From Subtercola endophyticus (lineage in GTDB: Bacteria; Actinomycetota; Actinomycetes; Actinomycetales; Microbacteriaceae): 64,000 bases of DNA. The stretch covers positions 1,240,001-1,304,000 of the forward strand of contig NZ_CP087997.1 in the NCBI RefSeq assembly GCF_021044565.1, read 5' to 3'. Positions 44,925 through 63,233 of the stretch are shown piece after piece. A program made the position numbers and the translations under genes. The notes under the pieces were generated by a model. It did not search any database and was not told where the DNA came from. It worked only from the letters and a program-made list of their open reading frames with translations. Within the stretch, counting starts at the first letter, position 1. Each line of letters begins with the position of its first letter.

Positions 44925-47651
44925 GTGTCCGACATCGAACAGCCTACCCTTCTCATAATCGACGGGCATTCGCTCGCTTTCCGAGCGTTCTACGCGCTTC
45001 CCGTCGACAGTTTTCAGACCAGAGACGGGCAGCACACGAACGCCATCCACGGCTTTTTGTCGATGCTTTTGCTGCTTCTGAAGAACGAGAAGCCGACACA
45101 TCTGGCTGTGGCGTTCGACATGTCGAGGCAGTCGTTCCGCACGCGTGAATACCCCGAATACAAAGGCACACGACACGAGACCCCGCCAGAGTTCTCGGGC
45201 CAGGTTCCGCTGCTGAAAGACGCCCTCAAGGCGATGAACATCGAAACGCTCGAGAAAGAAGACTTCGAGGCCGACGACATTCTCGCCACGCTCGCCCGGC
45301 AGGGCACCGAGCAGGGGTATCGCGTGCTTGTCGTGTCGGGCGATCGCGACGCGATCCAGCTTGTCAACGACAACGTCACGCTGCTCTACCCGTCACGGCA
45401 GGGTGTCACCGAACTCACGCGGTACGACCGCAACAAGGTGTTCGAGCGCTACGGCATCGAGCCGCACCAGTACCCCGAGGTTGCCGCGTTGGTCGGCGAG
45501 ACGAGCGACAATCTGCCGGGCATCCCGAAGGTCGGCGAAAAGACCGCGGTCAAGTGGCTGAACCAGTTCGGCAGCCTCGACGAGATTCTGCGCCGCTCCG
45601 ACGAGATCGGCGGCAAAGTCGGCGAGAGCCTGCGCGAGTTCCAAGAGAACGCGGTGCGCAACCGCAAACTGAACCGGCTGCTCACCGACGTCGAGCTGCC
45701 GCTCGGGCCGGCCGACTTCGGCAAGCGGCCGATCGACGAGCAGGCCGTGCGCGACCTGTTCGCTCGGCTGGAGTTTCGCACACTGCTCGAGCGGGTGTTC
45801 AAGCTCGAGGGTGTCGGCGACGACGGCACCGGCAGCAGCGCGTTCGGCGGCGGCCTCGGCAGTGGTGCCGGTGCTGGCGGCGCCGGCGCGGGCGGCCGTC
45901 TTGTCGACGAAAAGGCCGCCGTGGCTCCGGCCCCGACGACGCTGCTCGACGAAGAACTGCAGGCGTGGCTGGCCCGGGCCGTTGCGGCCGAGCCGTTCGG
46001 CCTGGGGCTCGAGGTCGAGTTGCTCGACGGCAAACCCATCGGGTTCGGCCTCGCCAGCGCCGAATCGACCGTCTTTCTGCCGTGGATCCCTGACCGCGCC
46101 GACTACCTGCCGTTCGAGAACTGGCTGGCGAGCCCCGCACCGAAGCTTCTGCACGGCGCGAAGCACCAGCTGAAGACTCTGTTGACAGCAGGCCTCACGG
46201 TCGATGGAATCACCTTCGACACGTCGGTCGCGGCATGGCTGCTCAAGTCAGACAGCGCGTCGCCGGCACTCACCGATCTGGTCGATCGCTACCTCAACGA
46301 ATCGTTGCCGACACCCGATCCCAACCAGCTCGTGCCCGACGACGACTCGGTGGTCGGCCCGGCGGGCACCGCCTGGTACGTGGCGCGCGTCGCGCGAGCG
46401 ATCAATGAGAAGCTCGACGACGGGTCGCGCTCGGTTCTCGTCGACATCGAGATGCCCGTTCTGGCCGTACTGGCCCAGATGGAGCTCGACGGCGTCGCCG
46501 TGAGTCACACCCAGCTCTCCGAGCTGTCGAACGAGCTCACCACACGCTCGGCCCAGATAGCGAGCGACGCGTTCGGCATCATCGAGCGCGAGATCAACCT
46601 GGGCTCGCCGAAGCAGATCCAAGAGGTTCTGTTCGACCAGCTCGGCATGCCGAAGACCCGCGCCACGAAGACCGGCTACTCCACCGACGCGGTCGCGCTG
46701 GCCGACCTGCAGGCGAGTTCGCCGCATCCGTTTCTCGATCTGTTGCTGCTCCACCGCGACGCCACCAAGCTCAACCAGATCGTCGAAACCCTCGACAAGT
46801 CGATCAGCACCGACCGGCGCATCCACACCACGTACATCCAGACCGGCAGTTCGACCGGCCGCATCTCGTCGACCGACCCGAATCTGCAGAACATTCCGGT
46901 TCGCACCGAGGAGGGCCGGCGCATCCGCAAGGCTTTCATGGTGGGGGAGTCGTACGAGACGCTGCTGACCACTGACTACTCGCAGATCGAGATGCGCATC
47001 ATGGCGCACCTCTCCGAAGACGAGGGGCTGATCACCGCTTTTCAGTCGGGCGAAGACCTGCACCGGTTCGTGGGCGCCCGCATCTTCGGTGTCGAGCCTG
47101 AAGACGTGACCTCGGCCATGCGGTCGAAGGTCAAGGCCATGTCGTACGGCCTCGCCTACGGTCTCTCGGCGTTCGGGCTCTCGAAACAGCTGCGCATCCC
47201 CACCGCCGAGGCGAAGCAGCTGATGACCGACTACTTCGAGCGTTTCGGTGCGGTGCGCGATTACCTGCGCAACGTCGTCGTGCAGGCGCGCGAAGACGGC
47301 TACACCGAAACCATCTTCGGTCGCCGCCGCCTCTTTCCCGACCTGTCGAGCCCGAACCGCGTTCTGCGTGACAACGCCGAGCGCCAGGCGTTGAACGCGC
47401 CCATCCAGGGCACCGCCGCCGACATTCTGAAGATCGCCATGGTCAACATCTCTCTTGACCTCGCGTCGCATTCTCTGCAGTCGCGCATGCTTCTCCAGGT
47501 GCACGATGAGCTCGTCTTCGAGGTGTTTCCGGGCGAGTGGGATTCCCTGGCCGCCATCGTCGAAACCCGCATGTCGACCGCCGCCGAGCTCAAGGTGCCG
47601 CTCGACGTGCAACTCGGCCGCGGCCAGAACTGGAACGAGGCGGCGCACTAG
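44925..47651 (+). CDS. polA: DNA polymerase I
   Basis: Gap-filling and Okazaki-fragment polymerase. The 908 residues comprise a 5'-3' exonuclease/flap domain (LLIIDGHSLAFRAFYAL; GDRDAIQLV; EADDILATLA), a Gly/Ala-rich linker near residues 305-325, a 3'-5' exonuclease-like domain without the DxE metal site (GLGLEVELL), and a complete polymerase domain with motifs A (TTDYSQIEMRIMAHLS), B (KAMSYGLAYG) and C (LLQVHDELVFE). Loss of proofreading residues is usual in actinobacterial PolA. GTG 44925 is probably leaderless. Confidence 0.97.
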   Translation: MSDIEQPTLLIIDGHSLAFRAFYALPVDSFQTRDGQHTNAIHGFLSMLLLLLKNEKPTHLAVAFDMSRQSFRTREYPEYKGTRHETPPEFSGQVPLLKDALKAMNIETLEKEDFEADDILATLARQGTEQGYRVLVVSGDRDAIQLVNDNVTLLYPSRQGVTELTRYDRNKVFERYGIEPHQYPEVAALVGETSDNLPGIPKVGEKTAVKWLNQFGSLDEILRRSDEIGGKVGESLREFQENAVRNRKLNRLLTDVELPLGPADFGKRPIDEQAVRDLFARLEFRTLLERVFKLEGVGDDGTGSSAFGGGLGSGAGAGGAGAGGRLVDEKAAVAPAPTTLLDEELQAWLARAVAAEPFGLGLEVELLDGKPIGFGLASAESTVFLPWIPDRADYLPFENWLASPAPKLLHGAKHQLKTLLTAGLTVDGITFDTSVAAWLLKSDSASPALTDLVDRYLNESLPTPDPNQLVPDDDSVVGPAGTAWYVARVARAINEKLDDGSRSVLVDIEMPVLAVLAQMELDGVAVSHTQLSELSNELTTRSAQIASDAFGIIEREINLGSPKQIQEVLFDQLGMPKTRATKTGYSTDAVALADLQASSPHPFLDLLLLHRDATKLNQIVETLDKSISTDRRIHTTYIQTGSSTGRISSTDPNLQNIPVRTEEGRRIRKAFMVGESYETLLTTDYSQIEMRIMAHLSEDEGLITAFQSGEDLHRFVGARIFGVEPEDVTSAMRSKVKAMSYGLAYGLSAFGLSKQLRIPTAEAKQLMTDYFERFGAVRDYLRNVVVQAREDGYTETIFGRRRLFPDLSSPNRVLRDNAERQALNAPIQGTAADILKIAMVNISLDLASHSLQSRMLLQVHDELVFEVFPGEWDSLAAIVETRMSTAAELKVPLDVQLGRGQNWNEAAH

Positions 47652-47722
47652 CGCCCGCCCTCCTTCTTGCGCCGCCCTCCTTCCCGCGCCGCCCGCCTCC
47701 TTTCCCCCTCCAGAGGGTTGAA

Positions 47723-47782
47723 AGCGACGTTTTCGGACGAGCGCGACCGCCCCGGCGGCTCATCTCGACCGCAAACGTCGCT
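47723..47782. repeat. Long inverted repeat between polA and dnaE2
   Basis: Arms 47723-47741 and 47764-47782 match at 17 of 19 positions (AGCGACGTTTTCGGACGAG against its near complement) around a 22-base loop. It lies in the 158-base gap between convergent genes, after a pyrimidine-rich CCTCC repeat tract (about 47655-47710). No U-tract. Confidence 0.65.
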
Positions 47783-47809
47783 GTCGCACGTGTTGCCATG
47801 GCGGTCGGC

Positions 47810-50800
47810 TCAGCGAAAGTCGCGGGAGCGGGTGGGGGCGCCGAGGGGCAGCAGCTCGAAGCGGTCGGCGATGAGGTTGAGAATGCCCTCGGGGGAGCGC
47901 TCGATGATGCCGCGCACGATCATCGCCGGCGCCTCACGAGCGACACGGCGGTAACGGCTCCACACGCCGACACTGCAGATGACGTTCAGGATGCCCGTCT
48001 CATCTTCGAGGTTCACGAAGGTGATTCCGCTGGCGGTCGCGGGGCGCTGGCGATGGGTCACGACTCCACCGACTTCGATGCGCCGGCCGTTCTCCGTGGT
48101 GGAGCATGCCGCGATCGAAAGGGCACCCCGGGCATCCAGTAGCGCCCGCGAGTGGGCGACCGGATGATCGTCGGGCGAGATGCCGGTGCTCCAGAGGTCG
48201 TAGATCACCTGCTCGGTGGGGTTGAGCATCGGCAGCAGAGGCGGCTGAACGCTCACGAACGTGCCCGGCAGGTATTCGGACTTGTCTTGAGCGGCGTTGC
48301 CGGCCTCCCACAGCGCCTCCCGGCGGGTGAGCTTAAGACTGGTGAACGCCCCCGACGAAGCGAGCGCCTCCATCTGCACGGTGTTGAGGTCGTTGCGCCG
48401 AGCGACGTCGGCCATGCTGAGGTACTCGCCGCCGCGGTCGCGCTCGGCCACGATGCGCTCGGCCACCTTTTTGCCGATCGACTTGATCTCGGCGAGCCCG
48501 AGCCGCACGTCGAGGTTGCCGTCGCGCCGGTGCTGCGCATGGTCGGGCGGCACCTCCCGGTCGAACACCTCGGCGGGCGTCGGCTGCTCGAACACCGCGC
48601 ACGCATCCATCCCTGTCGCCGCCACCATCTGCGGCGATCGAGCTACGAGTTTGTGCGGGTGTTCGGTGCCAGCACCCGCACAAACTCGTAGCTCGATCGA
48701 TTCCGCGGGCTCGAGCCCGGCCAGCACGCCCGAACGCTGGATGTCGGGGCGGTGCACCACGACGCCGTGCCGCCGGGCATCCGCCACCAGCGTCTGCGGC
48801 GAGTAGAACCCCATGGGCTGGGCACGCAGCAGCGACGCGAGAAACGCGGCCGGGTAGTGCAGCTTGAACCACGAGCTGGCGTAGACCAGCAGCGCGAAGC
48901 TCTGCGAGTGACTTTCAGCGAACCCGAAGTTCGCGAACGCCTCGATCTTCTGGTAGATCTGCTCGGCGACCTCAGGCTCAATGCCGTTCGCCGCCATGCC
49001 CTCGAACAACTTCGAGCGCAGCGACGAGATCTTCTCGATGCCGCGCTTGGACCCCATTGCGCGCCGCAGCAGGTCGGCGTCTTCGGCCGTGCAGTTGCCC
49101 ACCGCTACGGCCATCTGCATGAGCTGCTCTTGAAACAGCGGCACCCCGAGAGTTCGCTCCAACGGAGCCTTGAGTTTCGGGTGCAGGTACGTGATGGGTT
49201 CGAGCTTCAGCTTGCGCCGGATGTACGGATGCACGGCTCCGCCCTGAATCGGCCCGGGGCGGATGAGCGCGATCTCGACCACGAGGTCGTACATCTTGCG
49301 CGGCTGCAGCCGCGGCAGTGTGCCCATCTGCGCTCGGCTCTCCACCTGGAACACCCCGATCGAGTCGGCTCGGCAGAGCATGTCGTACACGCCCTGCTCT
49401 TCTTTCGGAATGTTCTTGAGAGTCCAGTCTTCGCCGAGATGCTCCCGCACCAGGTCGAAGCTGTGCTGCAGCGCCGAGAGCATGCCGAGCCCGAGCATGT
49501 CGAACTTCACGAGGCCCATCCAGGCGCAGTCGTCTTTGTCCCACTGCAGAACGGTGCGATCATCCATTCGCCCGTTCTCGATGGGGCAGACCTCGCCGAC
49601 GGGCCCGTCGGTGAGCACCATTCCTCCCGAATGAATGCCGAGGTGGCGCGGAAACTTGAGTACCTGCTCCACCAGCTCCATCACGTCGGCAGGAATGTCG
49701 TGATCTTTCGTCTCGACCGCCGGGCCCCAGCGCTCGACCTGCTTCGCCCAGGCATCCTGCTGGCCGGCAGAGTAACCGAGCGCCTTCGCCATGTCGCGCA
49801 CCGCGAACTTGGGCCGGTAACTGATGACGTTCGCGACCTGCGCGGCATTTCGTCGACCGTACTTCGTATAGACGTACTGAATGACCTCCTCCCGTCGATC
49901 CGAATCGAAATCCACATCGATATCGGGTTCTTCGTCGCGCAGGTGCGACAAGAACCGTTGAAACGGCAGGTCGAACTTGATCGAATCGACGGCCGTGATG
50001 TCGAGGATGTAGCAGACCGCCGAGTTGGCCGCCGACCCGCGCCCCTGGCAGAGAATGTTCTGGCTGCGCGCGTAGCGCACCATGTCCCAGACGATCAGAA
50101 AGTAACCCGGAAAGTCTTTCTGCTCGATGACCGCAAGCTCGCTCTCGATGCGCTCGCGCACGGCATCGGTGGCGTCGGGGTAGTGGTCGGGCATGCCCTT
50201 CTCGACCAGTTCGCGTAGATAGCTCATTGGTGTGTGCCCGTCGGGCATCTCTTGGCGGGGGAGGCGCGGCCTGGCTGTTCGCAGCTGAAACGAGAGGTCA
50301 TCCGCCACCTCCACCGTACGTTCGACAGCCCCCGGGTAACGCGCGAACCGTGCCGTCATCTCGGCCCCCGAACGCAGATGCGACCCAGCGGATGCCGGCA
50401 ACCACCCCTCGAGGTCGGTGAGACTGCGACGAGCGCGAACGGCGGCGAGGCTCTGCGAGAGCTCGAACTGCTGCGGGGTGGCGTAGTGCACGTTGCCCGT
50501 CGCGACAACGTCGAGCCGGTGTTTCGCCGCCAGCTCGGCCAGCGCGTCGTTGAGGTCGCTCGCCAGCGGATCACCGTGATCGAACAGCTCGACCAGAACG
50601 TTGCCGCGCCCGAACAATGCGACGAGCCGGTCGAGTTCGCGCGAGGCGGCGGCGGGCCCGTCGGTGACGAGCGCCTGGCGCACGGCGCCCTTGCGGCAGC
50701 CGGTGAGCACCGTCCACGCGGAGTCGCCGAGCAGGCCTGCGCCTGCACCTGCACCCGCACCAGCGCCCGCGCCCACGCCCGCGTGGCTGGGGCGTCGCGC

Positions 50801-51358
50801 CGCCTCGGCCAGTTGCTCGAGGTCGAAGATCGGCCGCCCCTTCTCCGCATCGGTGGCCAGCTGTGCCGAGGTGATGGCACCCGCGAGCCGGTGATACCCC
50901 TCCTGTTTGCGTGCCAGCACCACGAGGTGCGAACCCTCGGGATCAGCTTCTCCGTTCTGCGGTTTGCTCAGCCCGAGCGAGAGCTCGGCCCCGAAAATCG
51001 TCGCCACCTGCGGATGAGCCTCCGCCGCTTCGGCGAGATGCACCACCCCGTAGAACCCGTCGTGGTCGGTGAGCGCAAGCCCGTGCATCCGGAGCCGGGC
51101 CGCCTCTTCGAGCAGGTCTTCGGGCGACGATGCGCCATCGAGAAAACTGAAGTTCGAGTGCGCGTGCAACTCGGCGTACGGCACGAGCGGCTCGTCGGGC
51201 GGTGCAGCGACCGTGACGGCCGGTGGCACGTACGGCTGGCGTTTGCGCGAGAACGCCGGCCCATCGCCTCCGTCTTTCTCGGGGCTGGTGCCGGGTCGCC
51301 GATCGGAAAGCGCGCGCTCGAGTTCGGCCCACTTGATGGGCGGATTATTGAACCCCAT
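47810..51358 (-). CDS. dnaE2: Error-prone DNA polymerase DnaE2
   Basis: C-family polymerase for SOS mutagenesis and translesion synthesis. The protein has 1182 residues. The PHP domain is near residues 60-130 (YAELHAHSNFSFLDGASS, ALTDHDGFYG), the polymerase catalytic acids are in EEPDIDVDFDSDRREE, and the C-terminal OB domain has GITFVNLEDETG. Two oddities are a Gly-Ala dipeptide run at residues about 193-207, and residues about 887-908 encoded by a perfect 27-bp inverted repeat. It is third gene of imuA-imuB-dnaE2 and starts 32 bases after the imuB stop. Confidence 0.96.
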   Translation of the reverse strand: MGFNNPPIKWAELERALSDRRPGTSPEKDGGDGPAFSRKRQPYVPPAVTVAAPPDEPLVPYAELHAHSNFSFLDGASSPEDLLEEAARLRMHGLALTDHDGFYGVVHLAEAAEAHPQVATIFGAELSLGLSKPQNGEADPEGSHLVVLARKQEGYHRLAGAITSAQLATDAEKGRPIFDLEQLAEAARRPSHAGVGAGAGAGAGAGAGLLGDSAWTVLTGCRKGAVRQALVTDGPAAASRELDRLVALFGRGNVLVELFDHGDPLASDLNDALAELAAKHRLDVVATGNVHYATPQQFELSQSLAAVRARRSLTDLEGWLPASAGSHLRSGAEMTARFARYPGAVERTVEVADDLSFQLRTARPRLPRQEMPDGHTPMSYLRELVEKGMPDHYPDATDAVRERIESELAVIEQKDFPGYFLIVWDMVRYARSQNILCQGRGSAANSAVCYILDITAVDSIKFDLPFQRFLSHLRDEEPDIDVDFDSDRREEVIQYVYTKYGRRNAAQVANVISYRPKFAVRDMAKALGYSAGQQDAWAKQVERWGPAVETKDHDIPADVMELVEQVLKFPRHLGIHSGGMVLTDGPVGEVCPIENGRMDDRTVLQWDKDDCAWMGLVKFDMLGLGMLSALQHSFDLVREHLGEDWTLKNIPKEEQGVYDMLCRADSIGVFQVESRAQMGTLPRLQPRKMYDLVVEIALIRPGPIQGGAVHPYIRRKLKLEPITYLHPKLKAPLERTLGVPLFQEQLMQMAVAVGNCTAEDADLLRRAMGSKRGIEKISSLRSKLFEGMAANGIEPEVAEQIYQKIEAFANFGFAESHSQSFALLVYASSWFKLHYPAAFLASLLRAQPMGFYSPQTLVADARRHGVVVHRPDIQRSGVLAGLEPAESIELRVCAGAGTEHPHKLVARSPQMVAATGMDACAVFEQPTPAEVFDREVPPDHAQHRRDGNLDVRLGLAEIKSIGKKVAERIVAERDRGGEYLSMADVARRNDLNTVQMEALASSGAFTSLKLTRREALWEAGNAAQDKSEYLPGTFVSVQPPLLPMLNPTEQVIYDLWSTGISPDDHPVAHSRALLDARGALSIAACSTTENGRRIEVGGVVTHRQRPATASGITFVNLEDETGILNVICSVGVWSRYRRVAREAPAMIVRGIIERSPEGILNLIADRFELLPLGAPTRSRDFR
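48635..48699. repeat. Perfect 27-bp inverted repeat inside dnaE2
   Basis: Arms 48635-48661 and 48673-48699 are exact reverse complements (starting CGATCGAGCTACGAGTTTGT) around an 11-base loop. It encodes dnaE2 residues about 887-908 in a poorly conserved stretch. A perfect 27-bp hairpin inside a gene is unlikely to arise or persist by codon drift. Confidence 0.9.
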
Positions 51359-59438: not shown

Positions 59439-59447
59439 ACCCGGCCT

Positions 59448-59502
59448 CGCGCGTCGATTTTGGCCGCATCCACTCGCTGTTTGCGGCAGAAATCGACGCG
59501 CG
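59448..59502. repeat. Long inverted repeat between coaE and pfkA
   Basis: Arms 59448-59468 and 59482-59502 match at 19 of 21 positions (CGCGCGTCGATTTTGGCCGC and one more base) around a 13-base loop, in a 91-base gap between convergent genes. No U-tract on either side. Confidence 0.7.
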
Positions 59503-59529
59503 AAACGGAGATACGCCGCCGCAGCGGCC

Positions 59530-63169: not shown

Positions 63170-63233
63170 GTGAGGTCGTTTCGACTCTTTTGAGGTGGTT
63201 ACGTCGGCCTCAAAAGTGTCACAACTGCCTCAC
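63170..63233. repeat. Long imperfect inverted repeat between the XRE gene and uvrA
   Basis: Arms 63170-63195 and 63208-63233 match at 21 of 26 positions (outer GTGAGG/CCTCAC and inner CTTTTGAGG/CCTCAAAAG perfect) around a 12-base loop. It lies 54 bases before the uvrA promoter motif. Confidence 0.65.

Follow-up and report, generated by a model that had tools for sequence, protein, structure and literature searches.

Palindromes that invade proteins have been described before, as Rickettsia palindromic elements (RPEs) and, in other groups, as intragenic REPs. The RPEs of Rickettsia conorii are about 150 bp long and fall into ten families (PMC10969869). GTAG/CGTC REPs have stems of 5-13 bp with an unpaired GTAG or CGTC at the end (Di Nocera et al. 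2013, PMC3733652), and those of the CGTC type are without a known transposase (PMC3733652). DNA-repair genes, DnaE2 included, have been reported as REP-tagged (Di Nocera et al. 2013, PMC3733652), so the tagging of DnaE2 as such is already known; what is new here is the palindrome families and their lineage. The text of PMC3733652 has no match for actinobacteria, microbacterium, streptomyces, or mycobacterium. Literature on palindromes in Microbacteriaceae and Actinobacteria, mostly records short of full text, yielded no description of the family reported below.

The window is a stretch of 64,000 nucleotides from Subtercola endophyticus, and it contains dnaE2. A first-pass annotation, made from the letters alone, had claimed two perfectly matched inverted arms of 27 bp in this gene, separated by a loop of 11 bases, and a reading frame that stays open across them. 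Both claims hold. The arms are exact reverse complements, and the dnaE2 ORF is uninterrupted across the repeat, which by arithmetic corresponds to codons 887-908 (Table 1). Very probably, the repeat is one copy of a dispersed palindrome family of the genus, about 61 bp long, and was inserted recently in dnaE2; most members of the family lie just past the 3' ends of genes, and a few are in frame within protein loops that tolerate them.

Table 1. The dnaE2 palindrome and its surroundings (positions in the window) and predicted peptides of the in-frame copies
Feature	Position	Strand	Basis or sequence
dnaE2, error-prone DNA polymerase III alpha-like, 1182 aa, host gene	47810..51358	-	ORF; Pfam PHP, DNA_pol3_alpha, DNA_pol3_finger, HHH_6, OB-fold
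DnaE2 linker (residues 885-914), hypervariable, flanked by P884 and T915, which are invariant in the genus alignment; mostly element here	48617..48706	-	
Left arm of the perfect inverted repeat, 27 nt; outer 2 nt outside the family core	48635..48661	.	
Palindromic element, 61-bp family core (25-nt arm, 11-nt loop, 25-nt arm)	48637..48697	.	Covariance-model match; 15-copy alignment
Loop, 11 nt	48662..48672	.	TTCGGTGCCAG
Right arm of the perfect inverted repeat, 27 nt	48673..48699	.	
Predicted insert peptide, DnaE2			IELRVCAGAGTEHPHKLVAR
Predicted insert peptide, FMN oxidoreductase			IELRVSAGDSAAHPHKLVAR
Predicted insert peptide, Nramp transporter			IELRVSAGASPEHPHKLAAR
Predicted insert peptide, P-type ATPase			AGLRVSAGADAAHSHESAVR

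The genome is a single contig of 4,318,731 bases (G000; G and L numbers denote compared genomes and loci). The arm proved to be dispersed when it was searched against the whole genome, as the first-pass annotation had proposed: its inner 19 nt, with up to 3 mismatches, gave 34 matches versus 7 for a reversed control pattern. Within the window, the 2 matches observed are the two arms themselves, and 0.03 are expected by shuffling. Eighteen elements of 61 bp, with the structure ATCGAGCTACGAGTTTGTGCGGGTG-N11-reverse complement, take in 33 of the 34 matches; three of the elements have one arm past the 3-mismatch limit. The arms agree at a mean of 21.4 of 25 positions (36 arms). Loop length is constant at 11 nt in 17 of the 18 copies and loop sequence varies. 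With the single 12-base loop omitted, the other 17 agree at 4.4 of 11 positions in the better orientation versus 4.05 when shuffled, a value that 9 of 2000 shuffles reach, so the loops are slightly more alike than chance pairs. This makes it less likely that the loops are random tags generated on insertion, as do the loops of another Microbacteriaceae genome, G141, which are similar by eye. A covariance model was built from 15 of the genome's own copies. Its best match in the genome, among the candidates scored, is the dnaE2 element (G000:C1:1288637-1288697, 84.7 bits), and two matches, at 3398413 and 3464396, fall outside the 18 elements. At E <= 0.001, and with no more than 36 candidates scored in each genome, the model matched at least 26 of 150 genomes and at least 21 of 85 genera of the bacterial family, where some weak matches (e.g., L054) may be chance hairpins.

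As called with a simple self-made gene finder, 13 of the 18 copies are intergenic and five lie within ORFs. Twelve of the intergenic copies adjoin the 3' end of a gene at 0-127 bp; the remaining one is between divergent genes. Such placement favors a reading in which selection keeps the palindromes for a function in RNA or DNA, as terminators, protectors of mRNA 3' ends, or sites of protein binding, and the copies in genes are accidents of their spread. The strength of the hairpin agrees with this (85 nt of RNA around the dnaE2 element fold at -60.4 kcal/mol, z -9.67), as do arms that are far more conserved than loops and, in the related genome G110, loop changes that by eye are often matched on the opposite side (TTCGG/CCGAA, TTTGGC/GCCAAA). 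However, the copies are few, their distribution over the family is patchy, and their stems are genome-specific, all of which speaks against a general need. No such role applies to the copies inside genes, and the 3' margin is also simply the least harmful place for an insertion. Selection on functional sites is a possible but unlikely explanation by itself, and it is compatible with a dispersed family rather than exclusive of it.

Like RPEs, the elements are dispersed palindromes found between and inside genes, in frame, with a recurring predicted peptide in unrelated proteins (PMC10969869, PMC3733652). Four of the five copies within ORFs use one frame, in four unrelated proteins recognized by Pfam, and these in-frame copies in several proteins bear out the likeness in kind to the Rickettsia elements that had been noticed in the sequence. 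Unlike RPEs as described there, the element measures 61 bp rather than about 150 bp and has an actinobacterial host, which sets it apart (PMC10969869). Like GTAG/CGTC REPs, the family is made up of short palindromes by gene 3' ends, here 12 of 13 intergenic copies, with a minority inside ORFs (PMC3733652). Unlike GTAG REPs, the stem is 25-27 bp here and at least 22 bp in the families of relatives, versus 5-13 bp (PMC3733652, Table 1), and the terminal tag is missing: by inspection, GTAG/CTAC lies inside the paired arm of many copies, not at an unpaired end. CGTC REPs differ in having a terminal CGTC, a stem of 8-9 bp, and a loop of 4-5 bases, compared with 25-27 bp and 11 bases here. The Y1 tyrosine transposase (RAYT) of GTAG REPs is also missing. 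Membership in the RAYT/REP system was rejected on this ground, since PF01797, the Y1 (RAYT-type) transposase, has no match in the genome and is absent from 149 of the 150 family genomes in a search that was positive in 5 of 14 control genomes. The sole positive family genome, G021, has no covariance-model match among those scored. The family works like RPEs and intragenic REPs and, by the tests made, is a member of neither. An actinobacterial set of this kind, with a Y1 transposase in one of 150 genomes, separates the phenomenon from the Y1 enzyme and from reduced intracellular genomes.

The family also resembles MITEs in being short, non-autonomous, bounded by inverted repeats, dispersed, and sometimes fused to ORFs. 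The copies could then be deletion derivatives of an insertion sequence with terminal inverted repeats of ~25 bp, and their inverted-repeat ends, small size, and dispersal fit that origin (PMC10969869). Copies of one MITE should share a centre, whereas the 11-nt centre here differs from copy to copy. By eye, no consistent target duplication is evident in the flanks, and no longer element bounded by these arms was encountered in the sequences inspected. An origin as MITEs is improbable.

At the dnaE2 site, the comparison with relatives points to insertion. The gene is found in all 12 genomes of the genus, own included, and the segment is missing in all 11 same-genus relatives aligned, two of which have DnaE2 proteins 95-96% identical to this one; the codons are not shared throughout the genus. 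The surroundings had been called poorly conserved, and the linker is indeed hypervariable in relatives, with large variation in length and sequence; that of G010 is not alignable across the element site, and the relatives offer no clean empty site. The insert lies inside the Pfam HHH_6 match (DnaE2 residues 866-1015). Between the same conserved blocks there are 7 residues in the solved Pol III alpha 3e0d, presumably that of Thermus aquaticus, versus 71 here. A structure prediction of DnaE2 from a 10-sequence alignment gave a mean pLDDT of 37.4, and no conclusion rests on it. The linker lengthens by simple repeats as well, as seen in the dnaE2 of G002, G003, and G004 (L070, L065, and L067), where it has grown by Gly/Ala-rich or AGGRT repeats and holds no palindromes.

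The dnaE2 copy looks recent because its arms are perfect, because it is absent in relatives, and because it alone among the same-frame copies still encodes Cys at TGT. The first-pass annotation had suggested a mobile palindromic element, either recently inserted or actively maintained, and this is supported by the absence in relatives, the dispersal in the genome, and the in-frame copies elsewhere; judged from presence and absence, the element is probably mobile. Its side alternative was a template-switch duplication. Template switching is a known route by which imperfect palindromes become perfect, and a local switch at a quasi-palindrome in dnaE2 that copied one arm could have produced the perfect repeat de novo. 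The perfect arms would suit this, but the arms recur at 17 further places in the genome and the linkers of the 11 relatives hold no precursor half. As the arm sequence exists elsewhere, a local switch is unsupported as the origin and is very improbable; template switching may still help to keep the arms of one copy alike.

In a palindrome scan, the dnaE2 palindrome is the sole one with a score of at least 17 in the window. Across 800 kb of the genome, 28 palindromes reach this score, and 15 of those measure 55-66 bp; Markov controls of the same 800 kb have none (0 in one order-2 control and 0 in each of two order-3 controls). Some of the 28 belong to further families, and others may be ordinary terminators. 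Ordinary coding sequence that is palindromic by chance, which the open reading frame through the repeat would permit, is ruled out for practical purposes by the perfect arms and the empty Markov controls, and the element is besides missing from relatives and dispersed in its own genome.

The four proteins that carry the element in the same frame are DnaE2, an Nramp transporter, an FMN oxidoreductase, and a P-type ATPase. Their predicted peptides (Table 1) are related and follow IELRV[C/S]AG-x4-HPHKL[V/A]AR, with divergence in the ATPase. The element is open in two of its three frames. The fifth copy in an ORF (4171698) is degenerate and in a different frame, and its ORF is weakly scored. G000 and G010 both have the Nramp insert, which is missing in G006, G009, and G011. 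They also share the oxidoreductase insert; no element is recognizable in G006, and the G009 sequence is much shorter at that point. The ATPase insert is missing in G010, G006, and G009, and the G007 row of that alignment stops short of the loop. In three of the four same-frame N-terminal arms, the Cys codon TGT is changed to TCT (Ser), a base seen in none of the 32 other arms (Fisher p 0.0006, a statistic based on a small sample of four arms). The two orthologues in G010 have Arg and Tyr at this position. The loss of Cys may reflect selection on the host protein after insertion, and on these four arms the dnaE2 copy would be the youngest. Such substitutions could serve to trace the accommodation of a selfish peptide by its host protein. 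A second family of this genome, with ATCGAGAGGGCGATTTCTCTCC arms, is in frame in galactokinase (G000:C1:4055116-4055177), between the galactose-binding signature and the GHMP N-terminal domain.

At site 3906304, which holds another copy, the element is missing in G010 and G006, both of the relatives read there. Sites 52960, 433714, 1547423, 2146794, 3895529, and 4171704 have orthologous, often degenerate elements in G010 (same genus; assembly 88% complete and 5% contaminated), and two of these six are also occupied in G009 or G006. The family is therefore old and not simply a recent burst. Several elements are mosaics of two arm subtypes. In the copy at G000 4042416, one arm core is exactly GCGGATTCGTG and the other is ACGAGTTTGTG with one change; the subtypes are swapped in the copy at 4171704, where one base is likewise changed. 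G010 and G000 differ at 433714 and 1547423: both arms are of the other subtype in G000, and one side carries an exact GCGGATTCGTG arm in G010. The loop at 433714 is retained at 10 of 11 positions between the two genomes. Concerted evolution of the arms was first read from a single site, for which simple decay in G010 would suffice; the case for it now comes only from the exact-subtype mosaics. Decay accounts for divergence but less easily for an exact subtype confined to one side, so the arms may have been converted or replaced one at a time, and the mosaics are a hint of this.

No mobilizing gene was found. Phage records contain no match to 221 bases around the element, viral contigs contain no exact match to a 21-nt arm pattern, and RNA families returned only matches below the gathering score, seven to microRNA families and one to a Streptomyces sRNA. 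The dispersed family most likely spread as a DNA strand that forms the hairpin and is copied to new places during replication or by some enzyme, which, if it exists, would not be an IS200/Y1-type transposase. New copies would land mostly in the 3' margins of genes, and copies in ORFs would survive only where a loop tolerates an open-frame insert. Because the DnaE2 linker tolerates changes in length, the insert there would be nearly neutral, and selection on the protein would later remove the cysteine.

Other Microbacteriaceae have genome-specific families of like anatomy, whose stems differ from genome to genome. In G110, the stem is CGAAGTGTGAGTTTGTGCGGGT, with 22-nt arms around ~14 nt; loci L083-L096 hold more than 20 nearly identical arms, around loops that vary yet often pair further. 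G141 has the stem CGAGGTGCCCAGTTCTGCGGGT and a second type, in arrays ~70 bp apart, also with 22-nt arms around ~14 nt. Its tandem arrays alternate two families of the same size, the GAGGTGCCCAGTTCTGCGGGT and GAGTCGCCCACTTCACCCCGT types (L101 1766-1952 and L102 2025-2295). Named species genomes, a set that may leave out the window's own genome, were scanned for exact matches to TTTGTGCGGGT-N13/14-ACCCGCACAAA; all 22 stretches found lie in the assemblies RYN_58, bin_157, and bin_38.

The DnaE2 linker is a recurrent site of such sequences. In G006 and G009, it contains an in-frame palindrome of another family, with ACTTTCGKCGGAGCAGAGCGAA arms that are matched in six of the 12 genus genomes at up to 3 mismatches. 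In G099 and G017, which belong to another genus, it contains copies of the GGTCGAGCCTGTCGAGACC repeat, which has 15 matches in G099 and 76 in G017 (both strands, up to 1 mismatch); these were missed by the palindrome scan and were spotted by eye, followed by a repeat search. DnaE2 was matched in 102 family genomes, and 70 loci were inspected together with nine further loci of the genus. The linker was read in 58 of these 79, the other 21 being missed by the text pattern, and palindromes occur in five of the 58, G000 included. They represent three families and at least three events, a count that leaves out a weak palindrome (score 12) in G050. As three unrelated families have entered DnaE2, it becomes testable whether the protein is a preferred target, is merely tolerant, or takes part in the insertions. 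The loop of the P-type ATPase was compared at 11 loci, 10 of which cover it: G011 carries there a copy of a family of its own, with an arm that recurs at L047, and G001 has a weaker palindrome (score 14).

Tentatively, and with the odds against it, these families could form one superfamily of Microbacteriaceae palindromes of ~57-65 bp, with arms of 22-27 nt and a variable loop of fixed length, in which the arms are re-specified in each genome. A non-Y1 process would seed copies into recurrent loops, such as the DnaE2 linker and the P-type ATPase loop, and would rewrite old copies one arm at a time.

Further palindromes were observed in passing. In G081, L274 4973-5036 is a palindrome with CCTGAGCCTGTCGAAGGG-type arms, by eye like the GGTCGAGCCTGTCGAGACC repeat of G017 and G099. 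Next to dnaE2, window positions 47720-47785 hold an imperfect palindrome, AGCGACGTTTTCGG...CCGCAAACGTCGCT, between the gene and the convergent ORF 44925-47651; its loop, TGAGCCGCCGGGGCGG, is common to palindromes at genome positions 3810809 and 4187271. Window positions 59447-59503 (57 bp, TCGCGCGTCGATTTTGGCCGCA) have 22-nt arms (91%) and a 13-nt loop, and similar arms, TCGCGCGTCGAGTTCTGCCGC, are found at genome position 3854953. A palindrome at 63170-63233 has 26-nt arms (81%) and a 12-nt loop.
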